Virus record (IMG/VR): IMGVR_UViG_3300025759_000098
Location: 1-61,584 of that record
Length of the DNA stretch: 61,584 nt
Direction: 5' to 3' (one strand)
Source: a virus
The notes beneath the pieces were generated by a model. The model worked only from the letters and a program-made list of their open reading frames with translations. It had not been told where the DNA came from and ran no database searches. Shown one piece after another: positions 2,982 to 46,719 of the stretch. How positions within the stretch are numbered: position 1 is the first letter of the stretch; each line of letters opens with the position of its first letter. The position numbers and the translations under genes are program-made.

Positions 2982-4547
2982 ATGGAATACAATCTACCTA
3001 GCGAGATTGTCAAAGACTTAAACTTTGGCAATGACGCTAAAAAACGAATAATTGCTGGTGTTCATAAGCTAGCACAAGCCGTAAAATCCACACTAGGCGC
3101 TTCTGGTAAGTGCGTAATATACGAAGATGGACGCGGTAAACCGGTTATCACAAAAGACGGAGTAACAGTAGCAGAATCTGTTGTCTTGTTTGATCCGGTT
3201 GAAAACATGGGAGCTACACTTATTAAAGAAGCAGCAAGAAATACTGTAAAAGAAGCCGGAGATGGTACTACTACAGCTACAGTTCTTGCTGAAGCCCTCA
3301 TAAAACAAGTTAACCACGAAAAATACCATGGTACTTCTATAAGAGAAATAAAAGAAGGTATCAATTCTTGTCTTGAAAAAGTAAATAATTACCTAAATGG
3401 CGCTAAAATAGACGTAAAAGGTAACATGTTACACAATGTTAGCGCTATTAGCTGTAATAACGACAAAGAATTAGGTAAAATTATATCAGAAGCTTACGAA
3501 AAAGTAGGTGAAAACGGTGTAGTTTTAATGGAAGAGTCACCAACAGAAGAAACTTACGTTGAGATTGTTGATGGAGCGCAAATAGAGTGTGGTTTAACAT
3601 CACCTCACTTTATAACAGATACTGAAAAACAAAGATCTGTACTAGAAAATCCATATATTCTTATTGTAGAGTCAGAAATACCTAACGTTAGAAAAATACA
3701 AAACGTATTAGAGTTCGTAATTAAGCAAAACCGAGCTTTACTTATAGTAGCTTCAGTAGCACAGCAGGTAAAGTCAGCGCTTTTAATGAATAAAGTTAAA
3801 GGTAATATCAAAGTAAACATAATAGACTTACCAGGCTTTGGTCCTACTAAGAGAGACACTGTAAAAGATTTAGCTATTTTAACAAATGCCATTGTTATAA
3901 ACGAAGAGCTAGGTGATGATTTAGACGGTATATCACTAGATGTGCTAGGTGAAGCTAAGAAAACTGTTACCGAAGACAGAAATACTATAATAACTACTTT
4001 AGACACTGATCAAGAGATAGAAGAAAGAATAAAAGAAGTACATAAACTAATAAAAAAAGAAAAGAACGGTTATATAAAGAAAAAACTAGAAGAAAGACTA
4101 GCTTTATTATCAGGTTCTGTAGGTGTTATAAAGGTTGGTGCTGATTCAAAAGTAGAGCTAAAAGAAAAGAAAGATAGAGTAGAAGATGCTATATATGCCA
4201 CAAAGGCGGCCTTAAAAGAAGGTATCGTACCAGGAGGTGGTGTAGCGCTATTAAACGCATCGGAAAGAGTATGCTCTGAGAATATAGGTGAAACAATACT
4301 ATTAAACGCTATTACAGCTCCTTGTGAAACTATATTATCTAACGCTGGTATAGAAAAAGAAGGAGAACTTGCTGAAGGCCGTGGTATTGATGTTGTAACT
4401 GGTAAAGAGGTTGACATGGTAGAGTTTGGTATCATAGATCCAGTACTTGTTACTAAGACAGCACTTAAAAATGCCGTTTCTGTTGTAACTACTATTATAT
4501 CCGCTGATTGTGTAATTTCAAATATTAGACTAAATGAAGGCAGTTAA
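2982..4547 (+). CDS. groEL: GroEL-like chaperonin
   Basis: 521 residues, against about 545 in bacterial GroEL. It aligns along its whole length: KDLNFGNDAKKRIIAGVHKL at the start, the nucleotide-binding signature GDGTTTATVLAEAL near residues 87-100, the apical domain in the middle, and KVELKEKKDRVEDAIYATKA, which holds the aspartate equivalent to the catalytic D398, followed by PGGGVALL. It lacks the C-terminal GGM tail, and the usual LGPKGR is replaced by TLGASGK. The host form would make a 14-mer folding cage; here it probably folds capsid or tail proteins, or replaces the host machine. The co-chaperonin gene overlaps its 3' end by 14 nt, showing that the pair works together. Confidence 0.96.
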   Translation: MEYNLPSEIVKDLNFGNDAKKRIIAGVHKLAQAVKSTLGASGKCVIYEDGRGKPVITKDGVTVAESVVLFDPVENMGATLIKEAARNTVKEAGDGTTTATVLAEALIKQVNHEKYHGTSIREIKEGINSCLEKVNNYLNGAKIDVKGNMLHNVSAISCNNDKELGKIISEAYEKVGENGVVLMEESPTEETYVEIVDGAQIECGLTSPHFITDTEKQRSVLENPYILIVESEIPNVRKIQNVLEFVIKQNRALLIVASVAQQVKSALLMNKVKGNIKVNIIDLPGFGPTKRDTVKDLAILTNAIVINEELGDDLDGISLDVLGEAKKTVTEDRNTIITTLDTDQEIEERIKEVHKLIKKEKNGYIKKKLEERLALLSGSVGVIKVGADSKVELKEKKDRVEDAIYATKAALKEGIVPGGGVALLNASERVCSENIGETILLNAITAPCETILSNAGIEKEGELAEGRGIDVVTGKEVDMVEFGIIDPVLVTKTALKNAVSVVTTIISADCVISNIRLNEGS

Positions 4548-4791
4548 TTATTACATAATCATAGATCAAATAAAAGATGAGCCTAAGAAAGTTGGTGGAT
4601 TAATACTAACAGAAAGTGTAGATGATGACAATAGGTACTTAAAAGCTAAAGTTATATCTATTGGTAATCTTGTAGAAGGAGTATGTATTAACGATGTTAT
4701 ATATTACGATAAACACGCAGGCCACGGTATACAACATAAAGATAAATTTTACCACGTTATAAAACAACAAGACGTGGTACTTATAGATTAG
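4534..4791 (+). CDS. groES: GroES-like co-chaperonin
   Basis: 85 residues, slightly shorter than GroES (97). The fold order is right: an N-terminal strand NYYIIIDQI, a mobile-loop-like segment KKVGGLILTES matching the GGIVL loop of GroES, a second strand KAKVISIG, then NDVIYYDKHAGHGIQHKDKFY and a final strand QQDVVLID. It should cap the ring made by the overlapping upstream GroEL-like protein. The 14-nt overlap suggests translational coupling and fixed stoichiometry. Assignment is by pattern and context; overall identity to bacterial GroES is low. Confidence 0.88.
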   Translation: MKAVNYYIIIDQIKDEPKKVGGLILTESVDDDNRYLKAKVISIGNLVEGVCINDVIYYDKHAGHGIQHKDKFYHVIKQQDVVLID

Positions 4792-30502: not shown

Positions 30503-33500
30503 ATGAGTACAGAGTTTTTATATAGCGGACTGGTTGAAGACAATCTTACCGATAGATCTTTTGAAGATTTTAAAAATCATTATTCTAATGAAGGTAATCA
30601 AAAATATCTTTACAATGGACTTATTGGAGATGGTAGTTTTAAAGGTAGTTTTCAAGACTTTAAAAATAAATATTTTCCTGGCACGGTAAGTACTCAGCCA
30701 CAAACAACAACTTCATCACGTAAAAAATCAACTAAAACAAAACAACCAGAACAACCAGAACAACAAGAACCTACTTTTGTAAATGAAGATTTTTGGAAAA
30801 CACAAAAGTACGCTAGAGAAGACTACATACGTAAAGATGGTAAATGGTACTACAAAAATCCAAAAAGCGGTAAAGAAGTAGAAATATCTAAAATATCACC
30901 AAATCAAAAGCAAGCAAACTCTGGAACTATACAACGTTACGAGGAACTTGAAAAAGAACGTAAAGCAGAGCTTGAATATAAAAAATCTAAATTAGAATTA
31001 GAGCAAGAGGTATTAAGTGGAAAAGAAAACAAAACAGAAGAAGATATACAAAAACAATTAGAGCTTGAAAATCAATTAAATTCATTAGATCAACAATCTA
31101 CTTCGGATGAAAACAAAAAGCTTTTAGAAAACAAAAAGCTAGGTAGTATAAAAATGCGTGAAGTAACAAAAGATATTACCGAACTAGATGACGAAGACTC
31201 AATAGCTTTGTTAAACAAACAGTACGCTGAATACGGTTTTACTTTTAGAGTTGATGAAGATTTTGAAGATAAAGTACTTGTAACTTCTATATACAATGAA
31301 AATGGAGAGTTAAAGCAAACGCAAGAGTACTTTACTTTTGACCAAGGGTTTTTCATGGATGATGACGAGGCTAATAGTGCAGAAGCAAAACGTATGGATA
31401 ATTGGATGCGTAGCCGTGCTGTTAAAGGTACAAGTGCAAAAACGTTGCAAAGCACCTTTGCTGAAGATAAAACAGATGAACAAAGAAAAGAAGAGGGTAG
31501 TAATAGCATAAGTAAAAATATTAGAGACGATGAAACTACGAAGTATATAAATAACAATAGAAGTAACATACCTTTTAAACTTAGTGATTTTGACAAAGAT
31601 AATTTACCAGAAGGTCTTGAAAAAATAGTAAATGATTATTGGGATGGTGATATAGATGCTTTGCTAGAATATATGTATGGTCATAAGTATACCTCTACAA
31701 TAGTAGAAGGTAAGAGTAGTATGCCTGTTAAAGATAGAAGTGATAAATACTTAAAAGGTTCTAAACAAGAACAAGTGCAATATTTTGGAGGTGGAACTAT
31801 GATAAATTACGATGGATTTAATAAAGACACTTCAAGAAAAAAAGATATAGAACAAGGTATATTAAACTATGCTATATCTCAATGGCAAAAAGAAAATCCA
31901 GGCGTTGAGTTTGATCAAAAAAACCCAGAGCATTACGGAAGTGTAAAAGAAATTCAAAGTGTAGCCGAGCAAGAATGGCAGAATTTATCTAAACCTGAGA
32001 ACGAAGAGGTTATGCTTGAAAGTGACATTTATAAAAATATTATAGAAACATCAGCAGCAACCATTAAGGCTAGTGATATACGGAAAAATATTAAGGATTA
32101 TGTTGAGGATCAAGATGGTAATGCGTTTTCTAGAGGTGTTTCTCAATTAATGTCTGGTGAGGCAGCTACAAAAGAGTTTGACGCGTTACAAGAAAAATCT
32201 AAAAAATTATTAAACGAAAAATCCGCTATTGAAGAGTCTATAACTGTTTCTGACACAAAATTAAAAGAAACATTAAAGTGGTTTGAGAACAACGATATAA
32301 AAGCTCAAATAGAAGAAATACGTAATAAAAAATATACTACACAACAAGAAGTTGACGCGGCTCAAGATAAAATAGAGACATTACAAAATACTTATAATTC
32401 AAAAATCAAAGATTATAACGATGCGAAGTTTGAAATGGAGCAATCTGTTATAGCTGCTAAAACTTTACAAAGAGAGTTTGTTGATGTTATAGAAGACAGA
32501 GAGGATTTTGAGGAAATATCTAAGTATCTTAATCAAAATTATCAATGGGGTACTATGACGGTAGAAGCGCTTGGTGATGCTGGTGCTGATTTACTTCAAT
32601 CTTTAGGTACTGCCGTAGAAGTTGTTGCCAACCTACCTGGTCTTGTTAATAGAGAGTTTGCTAGAACTTTACTAGATTATGGCGCGGCAAATCCTGACTC
32701 TGCTATAGGTGGTTTTATAAACTCACCAACCGTTACAAGTGGTTTACGAGGTGTTGAAAAAGTAGGTGACGCGATGACAAATAGTAGATTTGACGATGAT
32801 CCTACTACTAGATCTTTACCACAAAAACTCCACGATGCTATTGATAAGTTTCAAGAGTCTAATATAATGAACGTTGCTGATCCAACTGCTTTTGGTGATA
32901 TAGATGGGTGGGGAGATTTTGGTAAATGGACATCTACTATGTTGGCTAGTCAAGCTCCACAGCTTGCTATGATTATAGCTAGTGGTGGTTCTTCTGCATT
33001 AACTCAATCTGCTTTATTAACTGCTAGCGCTGCGGGCTCAAAGTTTTCTGGTATGGAAGAACAAAGAGACTTATACCTTCAGACTGGAGGTTTATATGGA
33101 AAAGATTATAGCTTTGGTAACATGATACTTAGTAGTACTGCAGTTGGTTTGGCTGAAGCCTTATCTGAAAGAGTAACAATAGGACAGCTTAAAAATGTTT
33201 CAAAAGCATTAAAAAGATCTAACTTAGAGCTAATTGAAGCAGGAGCTAAAGGTGTTAAAAGAGGTTTTAATAAAGAGTTTATAGGAGGTTATACTAAACA
33301 CATGATGAACACTGTGTTTAATCCTAAATTAATGCTTGCCGCCGGGTACGATAGACTTCAAGAGGGTGTATCTGAATCTTTAGCTACTATGTCTGAAAAT
33401 TTAGTAGATATATTCAACGGTGAAGATGTTAGTATATTTGACAACGTTGATCAAGCTTTCGTAAGTGGAACTATAATGTCTCAAGCTATTAATACTCCAG

Positions 33501-36500
33501 TAGTGTTTAATCACATGGCCGCTCCTTTTAGATCAGTTAATACTCAAAGTATACTAGATAGAAACACAGCGCGTATGGACCAGTTGTTACAAGAGATACA
33601 TTTATACAACAATAACCCAGCTAAAGAACAAGAGCTTATTAACGAATACAAAGACTTGAAAGAAGAGTCTATGAGAGTCATGGAGCTGGATGTTAAGAGA
33701 GTTGATGCTATGACTGAGTTTGAAAAAGGTAAACTTATAGAAGTACATAAAAACACAAATAGATTAAAAAAAGAAGTTAATGATTTACAAAAGAAACTTG
33801 ACAGCGGCGAAATAACGCAAGAGCAAGCTAACCAACAGTACAAAGATTTAGAAAACCAATTTAAACGTATCGATAGTCAAAAGCAACAAATATTAGACAA
33901 GTATGATGTAAACTTTATAAATACTACTTATGAAAAAACCATGAATAGTATGAGGCAAAGAGCTAAAGAAATAAGCGATGCTTCTGGCGCTAGTATAAAT
34001 ATAAACATCCAAGAAGGTAACGATGGAACTTTTACGCAGTGGCAAATAGAAAACGGAGGTTATACAGTTACTGAAAGTGATGCTAACGGAAACCCGACTA
34101 GAATTATAATGAAAGAAAATACTAGAAAGGGTAAAATTAAAGAGTTTAAAAACCAATTAAACGATCCTAATTTAACAAACAAAGAAAGATCTGCAATTGA
34201 AAGTAATTTAAAAGTTTTAGAAAGTGGTGTTGACGTAGGTATGGATATAAACCAGTACAACCAAATAATGAACGACTCAAGTAATTATGGTTCGTTTGTT
34301 CCTAAGTACGATAACGATGGGAATTACATAGGTCAAGAAATATTTATAAATAAAAATGCCGCTCACGATGGTGGAGAGTTTTCTATAGCTGCTCACGAGT
34401 TCATGCATGGTATGTTGTACTCTACGTTAAAAGGAGATATGAGAACTCAAAACGCTTTAACTAATACTATTTTAAATACATTAGAACAAAAAGGTGTTAA
34501 GGTACCAGAAGGTGTTATGAACAAAATAAATTCATACGCACAAGACGGCACAAGAGGAGAGGAGATAATGACAGTTTTATCACAAGCTATTAGTGATGGT
34601 GATATTAAGCTACCTAAGACTGCTTTAGGAGGGTTTAAAAACTTTTTCCGTAGATATGGTTATAATCATCAAGGAGCTGCTATAGAGTTTGATACAGATC
34701 AAGACATAATAAACTTCTTAAAAGATTATACTTACTCTATGAAAAACAACAAGCAGAACAAAGCTTTAACAAACATGTTTATTCATGGTGCTTCTGGTAA
34801 GCTTATAGAGAAACAACAACGTTATAGAGACCTAAGAAAAAAGTATAGAGAAAATGCAGCCGAAAGAAACAATCAAGCTATGTTTTCTAAAAACGTAGAA
34901 CAAGTAATAAAAAGCCAACCTGACTTAATGTCAGAGATAGACTCTCTTGTTAAGAACGCAGACGGCACACCAAAATATAAAACTCAAAATGAATTTATAA
35001 ATTCTATAGATGGTGGTGAAGCTTATAATTTAATAACAAATACTAAAAAGCTAGATGGTTTAATTCAAGCTGGTATTATGGCACAGGGCATAAATACGCC
35101 TCAAGCTATAGGTGAGTTTACTAGAAACGTAAAAGATAAACTAGGTGAGAGATTATTAAAGAACTTTGACCCAGCTAAAAACGATAGTTTGTTTGGTTGG
35201 TTAACTGGTGTCTCAGGTGGTGCTGGGCAATCAATTATTTACAGAGCAAAAGGTGATGTAATGGTTGATTATAAAAAACAATTACAAACTACTTCTGCTG
35301 ACGTAGGTGTAAGAACTGATACCGGCGAAACAATAGGTACTCAGTTTGAAGCAGATGTAGATACTGATGTACAAGCTTTTGAAAATGAAATTATAATACC
35401 AGGTTCTAATGTTAGAGTTGATAAAAATCAAACTGATGTAGTATTTTTAGAAAGTGTAAATGCAAAAGTTACTAAAACAAAAATAGATAATATAGTACAA
35501 GACTCTGGTATAAACTTAAAAGGACTTACATACAACGGTACAAAGAAAATGCTAGTACAGCATGATGGTGGTAAACCAAAGTCAAAGCGTAAACCTACTG
35601 GTCCTTTATATGGCGCTCTTCAATCAACTAGTAATTTGTTCGGTGTTGACCCATTACGTATAATAAAAGAACAAGATTTAACAGCCACGCAAAGAGAACT
35701 TGCTAGAGATTTTATAAAAGAAAATACACAACAGTTAATAGATATGTTACCTGAAGGAGAAAACAGAAGTGGTGATGCGACAGGTGTTGCTAATACTGTT
35801 TTAAAAGAATTTTACGTTGAAGGCGAAAGAATATCAATGGCTGAAAGTGGTAGTGCTAAGGGTAAAAAGAGACAAACAAAAAGAGACAACATAACGACAC
35901 AAGAGTTTATAGAGTTTTTTAATAAGCCAGGTACAAAATCAGATGGAGCAATAAGAGCTTTAATAGTGCAATCGGCAACAATAGCTTCTAATCAGGCAAT
36001 AAGACAAAATGCTATAGAAAAATCTACTGATCCATTTAGTGACATAGCACTAGTTGGAGATGGTAAGTCTGCTGTTATGTTTAGTAAAAGAAATAATATA
36101 CCTAATTTAAAAAATGCTGATAAAATACCTAACTACAAAAGATTAGGCGCTTTTGATGCAAGACTAAACGAACAAAAAAGAAATATATTTTGGAACAGAG
36201 TAGAACAATTAGCTGGTACCATATCTGCTAACAACGCTGTTCCACTTAGAAACAAACAAGGTGATATTGTTAATGAAGATTTATCTAGACGATCTATAAA
36301 AGAAATGGTAACTGATGTTTATAGAGACGTATTTACACAGTCGGAAATAAATGAATTAGCTGATAGTATTTATGATGTTGTTTCTTCTAAGTCCTTAAAA
36401 TACAGCGTTGAGATTGAAGGTAAAATTAAAAACAGAACACCCAAGCTTAACAAGGATGGAAGTTATAGTGTGGAACAGCAAGGTGCTATAGTAGAAGCTC

Positions 36501-39500
36501 TGTATACATCCAAGCAAGACGCTAACACCAAAATATCTAGCTTTGTAGGAGCAGGAGTAACTACGGCAAGTTTAGGTAATGATACAGATTTAATGAACGT
36601 GTCTAGAGCTAGAATCAAAACCTATATTGATACTAGAGTAGATGAAATTAAAAAAGAATATGCTGGACAAGGTGACGCTGTTATTGGTGGGCAGATAATA
36701 AAAATGTTATCAGAACAAATGGACCAGCACGTTACGGCTGGTAAAGTTTGGGATGGTAGACAACAATTGTTTGCTGCTACGCCTGACTTTGTTTTAAACG
36801 TAGCTTCTAAAATACCAGGTTTAAACTTTGCTATCAAGGTTGCTAAAGATGGTAAAACTGAAATAGATATTAAAACAGCAACTTATGACTCTAATAGTAA
36901 TATAACTAGAAGTTTTGATAATTTATTATCTACAGATACTAGAAGTAAAAGATCAGAAAAATTAAGTCAAAAAGATGTTAGCAAAAGAAAAAGCTCTGTA
37001 TTTACAAAGCTTGATCCTAATTTACCAGGCACAGCTATACAACAACAAAGATTTAAAAATTATCCTCAGTCAGGACCAAGTTTAATAGCAGATTTTATTT
37101 TTGATAAAAACAAAGTTTTAGAAAGAAAACAAGACGCTTTAAATGCACAGTTAGAATTAAACAATTTTGTTAGGTTTGTAGCTAAAGAATACAAAGAAGG
37201 TAGGATGTCGGAAAGAGAATTACAGGTTCACATGGCTACGTTGCTTTCTAATATGAAACCTACTTTAGCAAGAGCAGCTATGCCTAAGTATATAGCTAAA
37301 AGCTTATTGCCTGATGGTTATCAAGAAATGACCAAAAAAGAAATACAAGATTATTTGAAAAACACAGGCGCCGTGTACGAACACATGCAACCTAGAGTTG
37401 GTATGATTATACATTTGTTTAACCAACATATAAATGGCAACGGTGTAACAGACGTGCAGGTTCCTGATTTCTTTTCAAGGTATAACATAGCTATTATACC
37501 TGAAGCTATGGATAAAAAAGCTATAAATGCAGTTGGATTAAGAGAATCTTTAGCCACAGGACAAACAATGACTATGCCAGAGTGGATGAGATACTATAAC
37601 GTTGATACAGAGCAGAAGATGGAACATCTAGATAGTTTAATAGATATTGACACTGGAGTAGAATTAGAGCCTACTGCTCACATAAGTAAAACTAAAGAAA
37701 TATTAAATACTCAACGTAGTGAATCTATAATGTTTAGCAAAGCTGTTAACAATGCTAATGCTATAAACGAAAATACGCCATCAAGAGGTGCTTCTGTATT
37801 TGACTTTGATGAAACATTAATTGATAAAGGTGAAAACATTATTGTTGCTACTAACCCAGAGACAGGTGACAAAGTAGAAATAAGTAGTGGACAATGGCCT
37901 ATACAAGGACCTAAGTATGCGGAGCAAGGTTATAGTTTTGATTTTAGTGATTTTACATTTGTTAAAGGTGGTGTTGAGGGGCCGTTATTACAGAAACTTA
38001 GAAATAGAATAAAAAAGTTTGGACCTGAAAACAACTACGTTTTAACAGCTAGACCAGCTGATGCAGCTCCGCACATACACGAATGGTTAAAGTCAAAAGA
38101 TATAAACATACCATTAGAAAATATTACAGGATTAGGTAACAGTACTGGTGAGGCTAAAGCTTTATGGATGGCTCAAAAGTATTCTGAGGGTTATAATGAC
38201 ATGTATTTTGTAGACGATGCTATGCCTAATGTTGACGCTGTTAAAGACATAATGGATCAGCTAGATATTAAAGGTAAATCTGTTCAAGCTAAAATTAAAT
38301 TTAGTAAAAGAATTAAATCTGAGTTTAGTAACATAATAAATAAAGCTGCGCAACAAGAAATGGATCTTGATTTTAATAGAATCTTAGAACAAACTAAAGG
38401 CGTAAAGGCTGAGTCTAGATTTTCTGATGCACAAGCAAAAGTTAGAGGTAGTAAAAAAGGTAAGTACGCTTTCTTTGTTCCACCATCAGCCGAAGATTTT
38501 AAAGGTTTAATATATAGATTTTTATCTAAGGGTAAAGTTGGTGAACAACAAATGGCTTTCTTTAAAAAGGCTCTGTTTGATCCTTTTGGTAGAGCAACAA
38601 CTTCTATTGATATTCAAAAACAAAAAATACAAAACGAGTATAGACAATTATTAAAACAGTTTCCTGATGTAAAGGCAGATTTAAACGAGGTTATATACAA
38701 CAACTTTACGTTGGGACAAATGATAAGAGTTTACAATTGGAACAAGGCTGGTTTTGAAATACCTGGTTTATCACAAAGAGATTTAAACAATATAGTAAAA
38801 GAAATGGAAGCAGACGCAGAGGCTTTAGCCTTTGCTAATTCACTAGGTATAATAACAAATCAAAACGATGGTTATATAGAACCTGGAGAGTTTTGGTTAG
38901 TAGAAAACATACAAAGTGATTTAAACAAAATTACAAACGAGATAAACAGAGATTTACATCTACAGGAGTTTAAACAAAATAGAGAAAAAATATTTGGCGA
39001 GTGGCAAGGTGATAGACTTGTTGGTCCTAATATGAATAAAATAGAAGCTATATATGGTTCTAATTTTAGAGAGGCTCTTGAAGATATATTGTACCGTATG
39101 GAGTATGGTACTAAAAGAAACAAAGGTAACAATAGACTTGTAAACGCTTTTAACAATTGGGCTAACCAATCAGTTGGTGCAATCATGTTCTTTAACATGA
39201 GGTCAGCTTTACTACAAACTATATCTTCTGTTAACTATTTAAACTGGTCAGACAATAATCCTTTAAAAGCTGGTTTAGCATTAGCTAACTTCCCACAGTT
39301 TTTAAAAGACTTTTCAATGATATTTAACTCTGATATGTTAAAGCAAAGACGTGCTGGTAACCAAAGGGGTATTAATGAAGCTGAACTTGCTCAAGCTGTA
39401 GGTGGTGTTGGTGTGGCTAACAGAGTTAAAGCTATGTTGAACTGGTTACTAACAAAAGGATTTTTACCTACACAAATAGCAGATAGTTTTGCTATTGCTT

Positions 39501-40666
39501 CTGGTGGTGCTACGTTTTTTAGAAACAGAGTTAACAGTTATGTTAAACAAGGTTATACACAAACCGAGGCTGAAACAAAAGCTTTTCAAGATTTTCAAGA
39601 AGTAACTGAGGAGTCACAACAGTCTTCAAGACCTGATATGATTTCACAACAACAAGCTTCACCGCTAGGTAGATATATACTAGCTTTTAAAAATACACCT
39701 ATGCAGTATGCTAGATTAATGAAGAGAGCTTATTTAGATTTAGTAAACGGTAGAGGTGATTACAAAACAAACGTTGGTAAAATTATATATTATGGTGGTA
39801 TACAAAACTTAATATTTAACGGGCTACAAGCAGCGCTAGGTGCTCTTATTGGAGATGATGAAGAAGAAGATAAGAAAACAAATGAACATGTTAGAATTGC
39901 AAATTCAATGGTTGATTCTATTCTTGGTGGTTTAGGTTTTGGAGGTAATGCTGTTATGACTATTAAGAATACTATACTAGAATATAACAAACAAAATAAT
40001 AAAAAGTGGAACTCTGACCATACATATACAATACTTAAGTTAGTAGGTTTTTCTCCTACTGTTGGTAGTAAGTTAAGAAAAGTATACTCAAGTATACAAA
40101 CTGAAAAGTTTAACAAAGATGTTATTAAAGAAATGAGTATGTTGGATATAGATAATCCTAGATGGTCTGCTATAGCAAATCTTGTTTCTGGTATAACTAA
40201 TATACCATTAGACAGGTTGGTTAAAAAAATGGACAACATAGATGCTGCTCTTACTGAAGACATATCTAATATGGAAAGATTTGCTTTGTTAATGGGTTGG
40301 AATACTTGGGATTTAGGTATTGAAGATCAAGATATAATAGCTGTTGAAAACGAAATAAAAGAAAAGAAACAGATAGAGAAAAAAGAAAAAAGAGAAAAAA
40401 AGAAAGAGGAAAACAAAAGAAAAAAAGAAGAAGAAGATAAAGTAAAAGAAGAAGAAAATAAAAAGAAAAAAGACGGTGTTTGTATCGCTATAAGTAAGAA
40501 AGGAACTAGATGTAGAAACAAAGCAGAGTCAGGAGGATACTGTACTGTACATGCTAAAGTAGAGCAAGGCACGAAACAAGTTCAATGTAGTAAGATTAAG
40601 TCTGATGGTGAGAGATGCAAAATGAAAACTAAGGCTAAAAGTGGTTTGTGTTATTATCACGATTAA
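30503..40666 (+). CDS. Giant multidomain virion (polyvalent-type) protein
   Basis: 3387 residues, the largest product here. In order: two N-terminal LY-x-GL repeats (about 6-30 and 36-61); a Lys/Gln/Pro linker; coiled coil (150-210); an Ala/Gly-rich hydrophobic segment (about 806-895); an HEFMH zinc-peptidase motif (1298-1302); unknown domains; a HAD phosphatase-like domain with DFDET (2434-2438), T2515 and DD at 2571-2572; a conserved helical region; a Lys/Glu-rich linker; and two C-terminal Cys/His zinc-knuckle-like repeats (C3327, C3337, C3347, H3350; C3362, C3372, C3383, H3386). FSK motifs at 1460-1463, 1859-1862, 2410-2413 and 2599-2602 mark domain edges. Probably ejected into the cell to act early (inference from polyvalent proteins). 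Confidence 0.82.
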   Translation: MSTEFLYSGLVEDNLTDRSFEDFKNHYSNEGNQKYLYNGLIGDGSFKGSFQDFKNKYFPGTVSTQPQTTTSSRKKSTKTKQPEQPEQQEPTFVNEDFWKTQKYAREDYIRKDGKWYYKNPKSGKEVEISKISPNQKQANSGTIQRYEELEKERKAELEYKKSKLELEQEVLSGKENKTEEDIQKQLELENQLNSLDQQSTSDENKKLLENKKLGSIKMREVTKDITELDDEDSIALLNKQYAEYGFTFRVDEDFEDKVLVTSIYNENGELKQTQEYFTFDQGFFMDDDEANSAEAKRMDNWMRSRAVKGTSAKTLQSTFAEDKTDEQRKEEGSNSISKNIRDDETTKYINNNRSNIPFKLSDFDKDNLPEGLEKIVNDYWDGDIDALLEYMYGHKYTSTIVEGKSSMPVKDRSDKYLKGSKQEQVQYFGGGTMINYDGFNKDTSRKKDIEQGILNYAISQWQKENPGVEFDQKNPEHYGSVKEIQSVAEQEWQNLSKPENEEVMLESDIYKNIIETSAATIKASDIRKNIKDYVEDQDGNAFSRGVSQLMSGEAATKEFDALQEKSKKLLNEKSAIEESITVSDTKLKETLKWFENNDIKAQIEEIRNKKYTTQQEVDAAQDKIETLQNTYNSKIKDYNDAKFEMEQSVIAAKTLQREFVDVIEDREDFEEISKYLNQNYQWGTMTVEALGDAGADLLQSLGTAVEVVANLPGLVNREFARTLLDYGAANPDSAIGGFINSPTVTSGLRGVEKVGDAMTNSRFDDDPTTRSLPQKLHDAIDKFQESNIMNVADPTAFGDIDGWGDFGKWTSTMLASQAPQLAMIIASGGSSALTQSALLTASAAGSKFSGMEEQRDLYLQTGGLYGKDYSFGNMILSSTAVGLAEALSERVTIGQLKNVSKALKRSNLELIEAGAKGVKRGFNKEFIGGYTKHMMNTVFNPKLMLAAGYDRLQEGVSESLATMSENLVDIFNGEDVSIFDNVDQAFVSGTIMSQAINTPVVFNHMAAPFRSVNTQSILDRNTARMDQLLQEIHLYNNNPAKEQELINEYKDLKEESMRVMELDVKRVDAMTEFEKGKLIEVHKNTNRLKKEVNDLQKKLDSGEITQEQANQQYKDLENQFKRIDSQKQQILDKYDVNFINTTYEKTMNSMRQRAKEISDASGASININIQEGNDGTFTQWQIENGGYTVTESDANGNPTRIIMKENTRKGKIKEFKNQLNDPNLTNKERSAIESNLKVLESGVDVGMDINQYNQIMNDSSNYGSFVPKYDNDGNYIGQEIFINKNAAHDGGEFSIAAHEFMHGMLYSTLKGDMRTQNALTNTILNTLEQKGVKVPEGVMNKINSYAQDGTRGEEIMTVLSQAISDGDIKLPKTALGGFKNFFRRYGYNHQGAAIEFDTDQDIINFLKDYTYSMKNNKQNKALTNMFIHGASGKLIEKQQRYRDLRKKYRENAAERNNQAMFSKNVEQVIKSQPDLMSEIDSLVKNADGTPKYKTQNEFINSIDGGEAYNLITNTKKLDGLIQAGIMAQGINTPQAIGEFTRNVKDKLGERLLKNFDPAKNDSLFGWLTGVSGGAGQSIIYRAKGDVMVDYKKQLQTTSADVGVRTDTGETIGTQFEADVDTDVQAFENEIIIPGSNVRVDKNQTDVVFLESVNAKVTKTKIDNIVQDSGINLKGLTYNGTKKMLVQHDGGKPKSKRKPTGPLYGALQSTSNLFGVDPLRIIKEQDLTATQRELARDFIKENTQQLIDMLPEGENRSGDATGVANTVLKEFYVEGERISMAESGSAKGKKRQTKRDNITTQEFIEFFNKPGTKSDGAIRALIVQSATIASNQAIRQNAIEKSTDPFSDIALVGDGKSAVMFSKRNNIPNLKNADKIPNYKRLGAFDARLNEQKRNIFWNRVEQLAGTISANNAVPLRNKQGDIVNEDLSRRSIKEMVTDVYRDVFTQSEINELADSIYDVVSSKSLKYSVEIEGKIKNRTPKLNKDGSYSVEQQGAIVEALYTSKQDANTKISSFVGAGVTTASLGNDTDLMNVSRARIKTYIDTRVDEIKKEYAGQGDAVIGGQIIKMLSEQMDQHVTAGKVWDGRQQLFAATPDFVLNVASKIPGLNFAIKVAKDGKTEIDIKTATYDSNSNITRSFDNLLSTDTRSKRSEKLSQKDVSKRKSSVFTKLDPNLPGTAIQQQRFKNYPQSGPSLIADFIFDKNKVLERKQDALNAQLELNNFVRFVAKEYKEGRMSERELQVHMATLLSNMKPTLARAAMPKYIAKSLLPDGYQEMTKKEIQDYLKNTGAVYEHMQPRVGMIIHLFNQHINGNGVTDVQVPDFFSRYNIAIIPEAMDKKAINAVGLRESLATGQTMTMPEWMRYYNVDTEQKMEHLDSLIDIDTGVELEPTAHISKTKEILNTQRSESIMFSKAVNNANAINENTPSRGASVFDFDETLIDKGENIIVATNPETGDKVEISSGQWPIQGPKYAEQGYSFDFSDFTFVKGGVEGPLLQKLRNRIKKFGPENNYVLTARPADAAPHIHEWLKSKDINIPLENITGLGNSTGEAKALWMAQKYSEGYNDMYFVDDAMPNVDAVKDIMDQLDIKGKSVQAKIKFSKRIKSEFSNIINKAAQQEMDLDFNRILEQTKGVKAESRFSDAQAKVRGSKKGKYAFFVPPSAEDFKGLIYRFLSKGKVGEQQMAFFKKALFDPFGRATTSIDIQKQKIQNEYRQLLKQFPDVKADLNEVIYNNFTLGQMIRVYNWNKAGFEIPGLSQRDLNNIVKEMEADAEALAFANSLGIITNQNDGYIEPGEFWLVENIQSDLNKITNEINRDLHLQEFKQNREKIFGEWQGDRLVGPNMNKIEAIYGSNFREALEDILYRMEYGTKRNKGNNRLVNAFNNWANQSVGAIMFFNMRSALLQTISSVNYLNWSDNNPLKAGLALANFPQFLKDFSMIFNSDMLKQRRAGNQRGINEAELAQAVGGVGVANRVKAMLNWLLTKGFLPTQIADSFAIASGGATFFRNRVNSYVKQGYTQTEAETKAFQDFQEVTEESQQSSRPDMISQQQASPLGRYILAFKNTPMQYARLMKRAYLDLVNGRGDYKTNVGKIIYYGGIQNLIFNGLQAALGALIGDDEEEDKKTNEHVRIANSMVDSILGGLGFGGNAVMTIKNTILEYNKQNNKKWNSDHTYTILKLVGFSPTVGSKLRKVYSSIQTEKFNKDVIKEMSMLDIDNPRWSAIANLVSGITNIPLDRLVKKMDNIDAALTEDISNMERFALLMGWNTWDLGIEDQDIIAVENEIKEKKQIEKKEKREKKKEENKRKKEEEDKVKEEENKKKKDGVCIAISKKGTRCRNKAESGGYCTVHAKVEQGTKQVQCSKIKSDGERCKMKTKAKSGLCYYHD

Positions 40667-40714: not shown

Positions 40715-40993
40715 ATGGCAAAAGAATTAAACGAAGATACTAGCTTTCAAATAAGCATTAAGACACTAGGTGGTATAGCTGCTTTAATAGCTACATTAGT
40801 AGGTATGTGGTTTACTTTGCAGGCAGACATTGCTGAAGCAAAAGAGTTACCAGCACCACCAGACCCTGAGGTTACACGTATGGAGTTTGACATGAAGGAT
40901 CAAATGATACGACAAACTATCATGACTACACAGGACGACGTTAAAGAAATTAAAAAGTCTATTGAAAAAATAGAAGAAAAACTTTACGAATAA
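40715..40993 (+). CDS. Membrane-anchored coiled-coil protein
   Basis: 92 residues. IKTLGGIAALIATLVGMWFT (about residues 15-34) is one membrane helix. A Pro-rich spacer (ELPAPPDPEV) precedes a C-terminal coiled coil (MTTQDDVKEIKKSIEKIEEK). This design, inner-membrane anchor with an exposed coil, occurs in i-spanin-like and accessory lysis proteins, but it lacks further evidence for that. It begins the accessory cassette after the giant protein and overlaps the next gene by one base. Confidence 0.68.
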   Translation: MAKELNEDTSFQISIKTLGGIAALIATLVGMWFTLQADIAEAKELPAPPDPEVTRMEFDMKDQMIRQTIMTTQDDVKEIKKSIEKIEEKLYE

Positions 40994-41331
40994 TGAAAAA
41001 AATTATATTAATAGTATTAATGTTTTTATTTGTAAGTGCTAATAGCCAAAACATTTGCAAGACAGATGTATGTGTAGTTGAGTTTAATGCTGGTTGGAAC
41101 AAAGCTAATAGTGTAGACTGGTTAGATAAGTTAAATGATTGTGGAGTTCAAAGAATAAATATAGACGAAGGTGATTGGCAAAAGAAATATAATATAGTTG
41201 TAGTACCTACAATTATAGTTTTCAACGGTGAAGAAGTAAAACGTTATCAAGCAGATCTTAGTTTTACTATGGCTGTAACAAGAAAAGAAGTACAGGAAGA
41301 AGTTGACGAGATATTAATGGAAGATTTTTAA
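40993..41331 (+). CDS. Exported thioredoxin-fold protein lacking active cysteines
   Basis: 112 residues. MKKIILIVLMFLFVSANSQ is a signal peptide (cleavage probably after Ser18 or nearby). VVEFNAGWNKAN aligns with the thioredoxin VEF-x-A-x-WCxxC segment, but both redox cysteines are absent (N36 and N39). VVVPTIIVFNGEEVKR carries the cis-proline (P72) and strands expected of the fold. Two to three other cysteines (C22, C27, C50) remain. It would fold in the periplasm but not act as a normal disulfide reductase; a binding or chaperone role is likelier. Confidence 0.75.
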   Translation: MKKIILIVLMFLFVSANSQNICKTDVCVVEFNAGWNKANSVDWLDKLNDCGVQRINIDEGDWQKKYNIVVVPTIIVFNGEEVKRYQADLSFTMAVTRKEVQEEVDEILMEDF

Positions 41332-41925: not shown

Positions 41926-42572
41926 TGGCTTACGATATTAAATCTAAGTTTAAAGCTAACAGTCCTCTTCCTTGTTGGAAAGGTTATGAACGTGTACCTG
42001 GTACAAGGCCAGGCGCAAAGGGTAGTTGTCGTAAATCTTCACCTACTAAACATGGTTCACTCGAAGACTTTCAGCGTGGAAGAAACGGTCACAACCCAGA
42101 CACTATGTCAGCAAAGCACGAAGACTTTCATTTGAAACAATCTAAGAGCTCACCTAATAAAACTATGGGTTACGAGGTTAAAATAGAAAAAGGTAAGGTT
42201 GTTAGTGAGAAAGAAAGACCTCACAATAATTTTAAACCAGGTAGAGAAGGTGAAAGTCAACACGAAGCTTATCATAATAGATTTCCAGAAAAACCTTTTA
42301 CAGACGCAGAAGGTAGACCTTTAAAACAACAGAAAGGTGGTGGTACTAAAAAAGTATGTTTACCCAAAGCAAAAGTAAACGCAATGAGTGAGTCTAAAAG
42401 AAAGTCGTTAGCTAGCGCTAAAAGCAAAGCTGGTTCTAAAGGTGAGTACAAAAGACCATCGAGTACTAATGTAAAAGGTGCTCGTAAAAAAGGAGCTACA
42501 CTAAAAGACTGGTTTGAAAAAGAAAACTGGGTACAAGTTGGTAACCCAAGTAAAAAATGTGGAGAAGCATGA
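41925..42572 (+). CDS. Basic protein with PCWKGYER motif and tag-like SP modules
   Basis: 215 residues, Lys/Ser/Gly-rich. Near the start SKFKANSPLPCWKGYERVPG carries a conserved PCWKGYE-x-VPGT ... GSCRK unit, followed by SSPTKHGSLEDF (tag-family SP-x-KHG). The C-terminal half has KKVCLPKAKVNAMSESKRKS and KGATLKDWFEKENWVQV, a motif typical of basic phage packaging-type proteins. Four cysteines in two pairs could bind zinc. Function not known, probably virion-associated and DNA-binding. Its stop overlaps the next start as ATGA. Confidence 0.76.
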   Translation: MAYDIKSKFKANSPLPCWKGYERVPGTRPGAKGSCRKSSPTKHGSLEDFQRGRNGHNPDTMSAKHEDFHLKQSKSSPNKTMGYEVKIEKGKVVSEKERPHNNFKPGREGESQHEAYHNRFPEKPFTDAEGRPLKQQKGGGTKKVCLPKAKVNAMSESKRKSLASAKSKAGSKGEYKRPSSTNVKGARKKGATLKDWFEKENWVQVGNPSKKCGEA

Positions 42573-44764
42573 TTAGATTTTTATTACTAGCATTATTACC
42601 AACACTGGTATTTGCACAGAAAGAAGTTGTTATACATATAAAAACAGATGGTTATCCTAGTGAAACTAGATGGATATTATACGACTCTGTTTATCAAGGT
42701 GACACTATAGATTATGTTGACTACGGTCATTATACACAGCCTAACTTTATGCATAGAGATACTTTGTATATTGATAGTATACAAAATATATCGTTTGTTA
42801 TATACGATAGTTATGGTGACGGTATTATAAACGGTGAGTATTATGTTACTATATGTGGTGACACTGTAGTTGATTATCCTGTTAGTACTTTTACTAGTGG
42901 TTTAATACACAATAGAGTTGTACCACAATGTATGCCACAACCACCTCCACCAGGTCAATGCGTGCCAGCTATGGTAAATATAAACTTAGATCAATTTACT
43001 AGTGAAACTAGTTGGGAAATAACAGATACAATGGGTAATTTATTAGCAGCAGGAGGCCCATATCCAAACGCTCCTGATTACCAACCACAACATATTCCAG
43101 TTTGCCTACCTACAGGTGTTTTAAGGTTTACGATATTTGATACGTACGGAGATGGTTTAGCTGGAAGCCAGTGGGGTGGAAACGATGGTTCGTATTATGT
43201 AATGCAATGTGGCGATACCTTGGTGTTTGGTACCACACCTAATTTTGGGACAGACTCCACACATGTATTTACCTCTGATACTTGTACACCACCACCGCCA
43301 GTGCCGGGCTGTATGGACAACAATTATATTGAATTTAATCCAGCAGCCACAGTAAGTGACAGTAGCTGTGCTACTTTAAAAATATATGGTTGTACTGATA
43401 GTACAATGTTTAACTACGACTCAACTGCAAACACTATGGATTACATAGACAGTTGCGATTACACTCTCATACTGCATGATCTTGCGGGTAATGGTTGGGT
43501 TGGTAGTAGATTAGAGATTTATCAAGACGACACATCACAGTTTGTAATGACTTCTGGTTTTAATCAAACTTACACTCTACAATTAAAAGCACCTAAGCTA
43601 GTAAGAGCTAAGTTTTTTATTAATCAACAAGCTTCGCAAACAGCGCCTGAATGTGGGTTTACTTTAATAAATCCTATGGGTGATACTGTTATAAGTGTCA
43701 AGCCTCCATTTATGCAGCCGTTTTTTGTGTATGGTGGCATAACTTATTGTGGTAATGAGTGTATTGAAATAGTTGAGGGCTGTATGGATAACATGGCGTT
43801 TAACTACGATAGTACTGCAAACACACCACTACCTTGTTATTATGTACCCGGTTGTATGTCTCCTGCGTATCTAGAGTATCATATCGATACATCTAACGGG
43901 GTTTATACAGATTTTAATATACAGGATAGCTGTAACACATTAGCTGTGTTTGGATGTACAGATACGGCTTCGTTTAATTACGACTCTACTGCTAACGTAG
44001 ACAATGGTGGTTGTTTACCAGTTATCATAGGTTGTATGGAAAGTCTAGCTTTAAATTATAATCCGCTAGCAAACACACCTGATACGTGTATACCTTATAT
44101 ATACGGATGTACAGACCCGACAATGTTTAACTATGATAGCTTAGCTAATACAGACGACGGTAGTTGTGAGCCGTTTGTTTACGGTTGTATGGACTCAATA
44201 ATGTTTAACTTTAACCCACTTGCTAATGCAAATGATACTTGCGTACCTTATATTTATGGTTGTACTGATCCGAGTATGTACAATTACGAAGCATCGGCAA
44301 ACACAGAGGATTTTAGTTGCGTGCCTTTTATTTATGGGTGTACCGACAGTCTTGCTATTAATTATAATCCTGACGCTAATACAGATAATAATTCTTGTAT
44401 TGAAGTGGTTGTTGGATGTATGGATCAAGATGCGTGGAACTATGAAGAACTAGCAAACGTGCCTGACACTTGTTTATTTTCAGCTGAGTGTATAACTGGA
44501 CCAGGTGAACCATATTGGTTAAATGATCCTTGTTATGCTTGGGTTATAGATGTTGATGAATACTGTTGTACAAACGACTGGGATAGTATATGTCAATTAA
44601 CTTATGATTACTGCGAAGGAACTTGGGTGGGACCAATACCGCAACGTATATCACAGTTAATAATGATAACAGATATATTAGGTAGACCTGCAAGAATAGA
44701 GAAAAACAAACTATTGTTCTTTATATATAAAGACGGAACAGTTGAAAAGAAATTTATAAAATGA
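42569..44764 (+). CDS. Secreted T9SS-like adhesin with cysteine repeats
   Basis: 731 residues from the ATG at 42569, chosen because MIRFLLLALLPTLVFAQ is a clean signal peptide cut after A16 and the start overlaps the previous stop (ATGA). Two SF-x-IYDSYGDG-like units (about 75-90 and 185-205) are followed by eleven cysteine repeats GC[TM]D ... NY ... C, then a YCCTNDWDSICQLTYDYC motif usual in Bacteroidetes exoproteins. The end, TDILGRPARIEKNKLLFFIY then KDGTVEKKFIK, matches the short type IX secretion C-terminal signal. A phage-coded surface adhesin or receptor-masking protein is inferred. Confidence 0.82.
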   Translation: MIRFLLLALLPTLVFAQKEVVIHIKTDGYPSETRWILYDSVYQGDTIDYVDYGHYTQPNFMHRDTLYIDSIQNISFVIYDSYGDGIINGEYYVTICGDTVVDYPVSTFTSGLIHNRVVPQCMPQPPPPGQCVPAMVNINLDQFTSETSWEITDTMGNLLAAGGPYPNAPDYQPQHIPVCLPTGVLRFTIFDTYGDGLAGSQWGGNDGSYYVMQCGDTLVFGTTPNFGTDSTHVFTSDTCTPPPPVPGCMDNNYIEFNPAATVSDSSCATLKIYGCTDSTMFNYDSTANTMDYIDSCDYTLILHDLAGNGWVGSRLEIYQDDTSQFVMTSGFNQTYTLQLKAPKLVRAKFFINQQASQTAPECGFTLINPMGDTVISVKPPFMQPFFVYGGITYCGNECIEIVEGCMDNMAFNYDSTANTPLPCYYVPGCMSPAYLEYHIDTSNGVYTDFNIQDSCNTLAVFGCTDTASFNYDSTANVDNGGCLPVIIGCMESLALNYNPLANTPDTCIPYIYGCTDPTMFNYDSLANTDDGSCEPFVYGCMDSIMFNFNPLANANDTCVPYIYGCTDPSMYNYEASANTEDFSCVPFIYGCTDSLAINYNPDANTDNNSCIEVVVGCMDQDAWNYEELANVPDTCLFSAECITGPGEPYWLNDPCYAWVIDVDEYCCTNDWDSICQLTYDYCEGTWVGPIPQRISQLIMITDILGRPARIEKNKLLFFIYKDGTVEKKFIK
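43307..44473 (+). repeat. Eleven degenerate GC[TM]D...NY...C coding repeats
   Basis: The repeats code for units of about 20-30 residues with a leading GC[TM]D, an inner NY or NF and a closing Cys, separated by short YI/FV linkers. Most diverged copies (for example GCMSPAY...) still keep both cysteines. Several adjacent copies (44090-44400) are very alike, suggesting recent duplication or recombination. This is a protein repeat, not a CRISPR array. Confidence 0.85.
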
Positions 44765-45810
44765 AAAAAGTACTATTAGTTATATTAGTTTTTCTAACGT
44801 CTTGTGTTGCACCTAAAAAATGTTGTGGGCAAGATAATATAAAAAACATATTTAAGTTTTCTACATTTTATGCTGCTGTTAATGGTGGTACTTCTATATC
44901 AGACGTAGAAACTTATAGTGTTACAGATGGTTTAGGTATTGAAACAATACAAACGCCTTATGATTACAACTTAACTTTAGGTATACGTAAAATAGCTAGA
45001 TTTGGTTATGAAAACAGAGCTAATACATTTTATGATGGTACTGAATCTAATTATAGTGATGCTGCTACAATAGGCAAAAGAAATGGTACAGAGTTTTTGT
45101 TTCAAGTAGATTACAAAAGACAAGAAGGTGTAGAGTATTTAGATCAACACCACTTTGTAAGATATGTAGCTGACGACTGGATAGCTAAAGCAGAGTACTT
45201 AGTAGATGGTTTTGCAGATATAGAGTATTTTGAGACGTCACAAAGGTACAGGTGTGATATTGGTAAAATAAGTTTTAATATTGGAGCCGTACAAAGATTA
45301 TCTGAGCCTTATGGTTACGATCCACTTGCTAGCTGGAAGTTAGATAATGGTAATATACACTACACGTATCTAGCTTTACAGGAAGGATATAACGTAGATG
45401 TTTATCATGACATGTATTATAATCCAGATGGCGACGTGGTAGCTTTTTCATCAGATGTATGGGAACAAATTGTAATACCAGAAGTATTAGCTAACTACGT
45501 TGAAAAGAAGCGTAATGAGTTAGATAACAAATTACAACACTCGTTGGTAGTAGGTTTAGATTACTATTATTATAATAAAAGTGTTTGGGTTCATACGTGG
45601 GCTAACTTAATGCCATATCACTACAACGATAAAGATGAGTTTAGTTACCACAACTATATTGATGGTCAATGGTTAGATTACTCAGGCGGCTTGATATTTG
45701 GACAAAAGATAAATAAAAGATTAGGTGTATTTGCGGAAGGTAAATACAATAAGTACTGGAACAGAGAGTGGTACGATTTTAAAATGGGTATTAATTATAT
45801 AATAAGATAA
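44761..45810 (+). CDS. Predicted lipoprotein/outer-membrane beta protein
   Basis: 349 residues. MKKVLLVILVFLTSC is a lipoprotein signal with the lipobox LTSC (lipidated Cys15); CCGQDN follows. The body is dominated by alternating aromatic strands (YNLTLGIRKIARFGYENRAN; LVVGLDYYYYNKSVWVHTWA; LGVFAEGKYNKYWN) and ends WYDFKMGINYIIR, resembling an outer-membrane barrel end. It probably lies in or on the outer membrane of the infected cell. Possible roles are superinfection exclusion or a host surface change; nothing decides between them. Start overlaps the previous stop as ATGA. Confidence 0.73.
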   Translation: MKKVLLVILVFLTSCVAPKKCCGQDNIKNIFKFSTFYAAVNGGTSISDVETYSVTDGLGIETIQTPYDYNLTLGIRKIARFGYENRANTFYDGTESNYSDAATIGKRNGTEFLFQVDYKRQEGVEYLDQHHFVRYVADDWIAKAEYLVDGFADIEYFETSQRYRCDIGKISFNIGAVQRLSEPYGYDPLASWKLDNGNIHYTYLALQEGYNVDVYHDMYYNPDGDVVAFSSDVWEQIVIPEVLANYVEKKRNELDNKLQHSLVVGLDYYYYNKSVWVHTWANLMPYHYNDKDEFSYHNYIDGQWLDYSGGLIFGQKINKRLGVFAEGKYNKYWNREWYDFKMGINYIIR

Positions 45811-45909: not shown

Positions 45910-46223
45910 TGGCTTTTAAAATGAAAGGATGGAGCCCATTTGCTCAAAAACCAAAGACTAGACAAGGTGATGTTTACGTTGGTGATAAGAAGTTTTCAGA
46001 CAAACCAATGTACGAAGGACAAAAACCGTCTACACATCTAATGGCTTATGGAGAATCTGATGGTAAGTTTGTAGCTTATCCTACTTTGTTTCAAGATGAC
46101 GATGGTACATGGCAGCAACCAGATGATGCTTTTAGAGAAGCTATAAAGAGAAAAGAAATATATCAATTTAACACAGAACAAGAAGCAAAAGAATTTGCTG
46201 ATGGTAGCTGGAAAAATAAATAA
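45909..46223 (+). CDS. FKMKG-tagged protein of the 'YPTLFQ' type
   Basis: 104 residues from the ATG at 45909; an upstream GTG in frame is less likely because the ATG overlaps the preceding TAA. It begins MAFKMKGWSPFAQKPKTRQG, tag plus SP module. A folded domain follows: LMAYGESDGKFVAYPTLFQD, DDAFREAIKRKEIYQFNTEQ and EAKEFADGSWK, a conserved phage domain seen in many virion-associated proteins, I believe. This is the only tagged protein adjacent to the lysis enzyme. Function unknown. Confidence 0.76.
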   Translation: MAFKMKGWSPFAQKPKTRQGDVYVGDKKFSDKPMYEGQKPSTHLMAYGESDGKFVAYPTLFQDDDGTWQQPDDAFREAIKRKEIYQFNTEQEAKEFADGSWKNK

Positions 46224-46224
46224 T

Positions 46225-46719
46225 ATGGAAAGAATAAGTAAACACGTAAGTTGGAAAGAAGGTACATATAGTAGAACAGGTGAAAGATTAAATTTAGACA
46301 ACACTCCTAATGAAGAGCAATTAAAATGCATGAAAGAGGTTGCGGAAAATTTGTTTGAACCATTAAGAGAGTGGGTTGGTGGACCAATAAAAATAAATAG
46401 CTTTTTTAGAGGCGAGCCTGTTAACACTGCTATAGGCGGTGAGAAACGTTCACAACACATGAAGGGTCAAGCTATAGATATGGACGATACCTTTGGTCAT
46501 AAGACAAATGCAGAGATGTATCATTATATAAAAGATAATTTAGATTTTGATCAAATGGTTTGGGAGTTTGGTACTGAATATCCTGACGGTAATCCTAATT
46601 GGGTTCATATTAGCTGGGTATCACATAGGCCTAATAGAAAACAAGAGGTTATTGCTATTAAGAAAAATGGCAGGACTAGATATATAAAAGATATTGAAGA
46701 GTATTTAAAAAACAAATAA
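46225..46719 (+). CDS. M15 peptidase-type endolysin
   Basis: 164 residues from the ATG at 46225. The M15/VanY-type zinc motif is complete: KRSQHMKGQAIDMDD (H78, D85) and NWVHISW (H128), with WEFGTE in between. Such enzymes cleave peptide cross-links of peptidoglycan. No signal peptide is present, so release depends on a holin, probably the 3TM protein at 7233. The N-terminus MERISKHVSWKEGTYS and the compact length (about 160 residues) match single-domain phage endolysins. Confidence 0.86.
   Translation: MERISKHVSWKEGTYSRTGERLNLDNTPNEEQLKCMKEVAENLFEPLREWVGGPIKINSFFRGEPVNTAIGGEKRSQHMKGQAIDMDDTFGHKTNAEMYHYIKDNLDFDQMVWEFGTEYPDGNPNWVHISWVSHRPNRKQEVIAIKKNGRTRYIKDIEEYLKNK

Follow-up and report, generated by a model that had tools for sequence, protein, structure and literature searches.

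How far does a phage-encoded protein travel out of the cell when it begins with a signal peptide and ends in a short tail that resembles a sorting signal of its hosts? The question is raised by a gene (here, the cargo gene) in a viral record 61,584 bases long, which was analysed over its full length and is called the window. The initial annotation had begun this gene at 42569, which is the second in-frame ATG (731 aa from there) of a plus-strand ORF that itself opens at 42557 and ends at 44764 (735 aa). That ATG is preceded by a better-placed GGAGAA and overlaps as ATGA with the stop of the upstream ORF; it may be the true start. The signal peptide, the repeats and the terminal motif that had been described for this ORF are all there in the sequence. 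The gene belongs to a forward run, with structural genes before it and an endolysin gene after it; scanning the window for tRNAs and against Rfam gave no matches. Phages of Flavobacterium, Cellulophaga, Maribacter, and Tenacibaculum are matched by the portal protein (42–53% among the matches listed), and those portal relatives for which a host is named infect Flavobacteriia, which points to a phage of Flavobacteriia or their close kin. No close homologue of the cargo was found among the isolates of the phage collection searched; two relatives are public database entries, A0A7S9XDT1 of Virus NIOZ-UU157 (59% identical) and A0A218MM41 of an uncultured virus (26% identical; 734 aa), the latter bearing the database name “Secretion system C-terminal sorting domain-containing protein.” We know of no study on either entry.

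Table 1. Features of the cargo gene and its surroundings (positions within the window)
Feature	Positions	Strand	Basis or remark
TM92, one-helix membrane protein (judged from sequence)	40715..40993	+	Cargo neighbour, upstream in most loci
Trx112, exported thioredoxin-like protein without CXXC	40993..41331	+	Thioredoxin matches below cut-off; upstream of cargo in most loci
Cargo gene	42557..44764	+	735 aa (731 aa from ATG 42569); relatives at 27 or more viral loci
Signal peptide MIRFLLLALLPTLVFA, then Gln	42569..42616	+	Sequence; Q-rule
Beta domain 1 (DSYGDG type)	42620..42919	+	AF2 strands, blocks of pLDDT about 77–91
Beta domain 2 (DTYGDG type)	42962..43276	+	AF2, blocks of pLDDT 51–81
Ten GC[TM]Dxx..NYxxxAN...C repeats	43307..44473	+	Sequence
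Cys-rich domain CITGPG.PYWLNDPCYAWVIDVDEYCC..DWDSICQ, just before tail	44489..44614	+	240 viral loci (A6 scan)
Short C-terminal sorting tail (putative)	44651..44761	+	Three predicted beta strands, blocks of pLDDT 76–84
OM349, predicted outer-membrane beta barrel	44761..45810	+	Near cargo gene in many loci, on either side
M15 endolysin	46195..46719	+	PF08291 and phrog_894

Judged from its sequence, the cargo is a modular protein (Table 1), and its modules have kin in Flavobacteriales proteins, some of which end in a type A domain of the type IX secretion system (T9SS) and some in the short tail discussed below. Cleavage of the signal peptide is placed, by rule, between LVFA and QKE; a Gln directly after the cleavage site is the “Q-rule” of Bacteroidetes (PMC5837995). 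Gln stands at +1 in 98 of the 103 viral sequences scanned (of the five without it, two are truncated), so that a Sec signal peptide, as expected of a T9SS type A substrate, is found by this rule in nearly all homologues. Beta domain 1 is related to Flavobacteriales proteins, beta domain 2 matches an ORF of G001, a flavobacterial genome of 1.92 Mb (E=6e-14), and a third beta domain (about 43450–43770) interrupts the run of ten repeats. The repeats are kin to those of host proteins of both the type A and the short-tail kind; by themselves they are no evidence of secretion, since a muzzle-like virion protein of the same phage (21939–25754, crAss_MUZ_C), which has no signal peptide, ends in two GCTDPxxxNYN repeats. 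Across the viral loci L028–L106 several unrelated-looking types of cargo N-terminus (TDxYPSETxW, FPWxxDFEN, TDTCMYGYA, VQFDFYxPxES) are joined to one conserved C-terminal part; such variation among phages at one end with conservation of the other fits a protein that meets the outside. The cargo contains 37 cysteines in all, and Trx112 stands near it without a CXXC site. A Foldseek search of the PDB with the whole cargo model (mean pLDDT 52) returned C2/ferlin-like structures with TM-scores near 0.1, and no function was drawn from it.

The tail itself comprises some 37 residues (about residues 700–735), LIMITDILGR...LLFFIYKDGTVEKKFIK. An HMM made only from host tails detects it with E=4e-14 (Z=100,000); with a combined host and phage HMM no other ORF of the window was significant, nor did any of 13,710 shuffled C-termini match, so the resemblance is far beyond chance. 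The check proposed in the initial annotation, a T9SS domain profile on the cargo C-terminus, failed for the cargo itself (no match to TIGR04183 or PF18962) and succeeded for those homologues in which a curated type A domain sits at the same place. None of 35 varied short tails passed the curated T9SS profiles either, the best reaching E=0.075 to TIGR04183; type B and type C (NF033708) profiles fared no better on the cargo, which matched no NCBIfam family at E up to 10. No Pfam or NCBIfam family matched the tail, and no PHROGs family the whole cargo. The structure prediction gives the tail three strands at residues 701–734, compared with the seven strands of the Ig-like fold of T9SS C-terminal domains (CTDs). 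When profiles were compared with each other (hhalign), the short tail did align with type A (probability 81%, score 26.4; the highest score among 300 column shuffles was 17.6), while the comparison with a phage-only type A set of three sequences was not significant. The alignment covers the part where motifs D and E, with the Lys residues of the latter, would lie (borders set by eye); on the type A side it covers the “D.LG+” strand and the domain end. The short tail is like type A (TIGR04183, PF18962) in being C-terminal behind a Sec signal peptide and in having the “D.LG+” strand and a Lys-rich end, and unlike it in length (about 37 versus about 72 residues), in lacking “YPNP” and the middle part, and in being missed by the profiles.

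That curated profiles miss the tail is what one would expect if export of the cargo stopped at the periplasm and the tail were a structural end domain without a role in the T9SS. What viral homologues carry at this position bears on this reading. In a search meant to avoid bias, in which proteins were picked by the Cys domain preceding the tail, 73 distinct viral proteins with complete C-termini were obtained: 58 end in the short tail and 15 in a T9SS domain of type A, with no third kind of ending. The sample consists of the loci of the first search plus the best 80 of the 240 loci by similarity of the Cys domain; the 58:15 ratio holds for this set. The Cys-domain pattern also missed some proteins, among them those of L013, L019, and L027, which end in curated type A domains and have several neighbouring genes in common with the cargo locus. 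NCBIfam was searched with ten of the 15 type A tails; every one exceeded the TIGR04183 cut-off, as do L013, L019, and L027. In a tree built from the region that precedes the tail (242 columns, partly repetitive; L313 unlabelled) the tail label changes eight times, at least five of the changes being forced by well-supported branches, although recombination could also cause them. The two kinds of ending do, as far as comparison goes, replace each other, and the phage family, in which one cargo has repeatedly exchanged one of two tails for the other, amounts to a swap experiment done by nature and opens the minimal T9SS signal to direct testing.

The short tail is also, again by comparison, a tag of host proteins. 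Scanning genomes with a query narrower than the broad alignment A1 found it at no fewer than 285 loci; all 77 among the matches listed are from Bacteroidota, nearly all of them named Flavobacteriales, Cryomorphaceae, or Crocinitomicaceae. The genome G001 encodes 46 short-tail ORFs, 40 of them with the tail at the C-terminus, and 55 type A matches (local HMM), of which 30 are strictly C-terminal; both together occur in no ORF of this genome. By a simple rule, a signal-peptide-like start is present in 33 of the 40 C-terminal short-tail ORFs, 23 of the 30 type A ones, and 338 of the 1233 others (p=2e-12 for short-tail versus other ORFs), and paralogues exist whose body regions are 58–60% identical and whose tails differ. 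Among 248 genomes from the order, the tail occurs in 42, and SprA exceeds the cut-off in 41 of these; no genome scored SprA-negative among the 248 has it. The co-occurrence (Fisher p=3e-4) is confounded by kinship, and many SprA-negative genomes are about 0.6 Mb in size and endosymbiont-like. G179, the single weak case, tail-bearing but without SprA over the cut-off, has PorV and PorU, which each exceed the cut-off in 18 of the 19 tail-bearing genomes tested; in G077 both are weak matches only, perhaps because the assembly is fragmented. SprA, PorV, and PorU were thus seen in genomes that use the tag, which may not be those of the host of this phage. Each of the 18 tail-rich genomes tested uses type A as well. 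When sampling was widened across the phylum, just one more tail-bearing genome turned up, so the tag is lineage-specific. In some marine flavobacteria it is about as frequent as type A and is missed by profiles; as T9SS signals are sought by profiles, the secretomes of such organisms are undercounted.

Export to the periplasm alone is consequently an improbable reading: type A, and nothing else, takes the place of the tail in 15 of the 73 homologues, and the tail ends dozens of unrelated exported host proteins. Very probably, the cargo is exported by Sec and then carried across the outer membrane by the host T9SS, which would read the short tail as a reduced CTD. Export through the T9SS, as proposed in the initial annotation, is in this form the best-supported reading, by comparison rather than by a direct profile match. 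The phage would encode a mosaic surface protein built from modules of flavobacterial secreted proteins; Sec would export it and the signal peptide would be cut before Gln; the T9SS would recognise the tail of about 37 residues as a shortened C-terminal domain, in which an “I.D.LGR” strand, an “LFFIY” strand, and the Lys-rich end appear to be kept; and the cargo would pass through SprA to the cell surface or into the medium. A signal this short is plausible as the last 22 residues (motifs D and E) of the CTD of HBP35 from Porphyromonas gingivalis suffice for the secretion of GFP (PMC10202324). The sequences themselves show the modular build of the cargo, the identity of its tail with the host tag, and the interchange with type A domains; from these we infer passage through the T9SS, display or location at the surface, and late timing of the cargo. 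It suggests a widespread group of phages that alter the surface of the infected cell through the host's own secretion machine. What the displayed cargo would do there is a matter of guesswork; masking of receptors against superinfection comes first to mind, tentatively, and adhesion next.

Could the cargo be a part of the particle instead, a fibre or decoration protein whose repeats are a virion feature? The muzzle-like protein carries two such repeats, and they also occur in a cyanophage protein whose annotation reads virion structural protein, but nearly all homologues have a Q-rule signal peptide, the cargo bears host secretion tags, and its gene lies beside genes for exported, membrane, and lysis proteins, which makes this highly improbable. 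Equally remote is a tail that serves another route, such as anchoring by the phage's own barrel OM349 without the host T9SS, for although OM349 is a conserved neighbour (66 loci) and a predicted barrel, host genomes put the tail on many proteins, and Foldseek likens OM349 to porins and autotransporters of a generic kind, the 50 best matches including no T9SS shuttle.

Against this background the short tail is probably a natural T9SS sorting signal of a fourth class, in addition to types A, B, and C, employed for dozens of proteins per genome in marine Flavobacteriales with small genomes. That it is all of this at once, namely a fourth class, traded by phages with type A, and served by OM349, encoded in the cargo's own gene cluster, as a dedicated shuttle or anchor of the cargo, is unlikely. 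The use of the T9SS by a phage, which had been put forward as new, is not: T9SS sorting domains were noted in crAss-BACON phages in 2019 (PMC6949934), and phage-encoded T9SS cargo was reported for Cryophage in 2020 (PMC7468147). Like the cargo proteins of Cryophage and of crAss-BACON cluster 2, the present one is a phage gene product with a T9SS-type sorting end; there, annotated T9SS domains (type A in Cryophage) are found on enzymes, PA14 or BACON proteins, whereas here an adhesin-like mosaic carries a short tag for which there is no model. The 22-residue end of the HBP35 CTD is likewise a shortened signal with motifs D and E, but it is an experimental truncation of a full CTD and not a natural short signal; the interchange of short tail and type A, in turn, occurs in phage homologues and host paralogues alike. 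No paper on the short tag was found in the literature covered, which holds few subscription journals, and what looks new is this short, unmodelled tag common to hosts and phages.

Other genes of the window deserve brief mention. The model of OM349 has 14 long strands (mean pLDDT 72) and no Pfam family; it was considered as a shuttle of the PorV/SprF kind and set aside, only generic barrels having been matched. After the structural genes lies an ORF of 3387 aa (30503–40666), for which the only Pfam match is DUF5763, just under the cut-off and near the C-terminus. Further upstream (2982–4791) the phage encodes a chaperonin pair, a GroEL-like Cpn60 overlapping a GroES-like Cpn10, both over the Pfam cut-off; the phage GroEL and its G001 counterpart are 39% identical.
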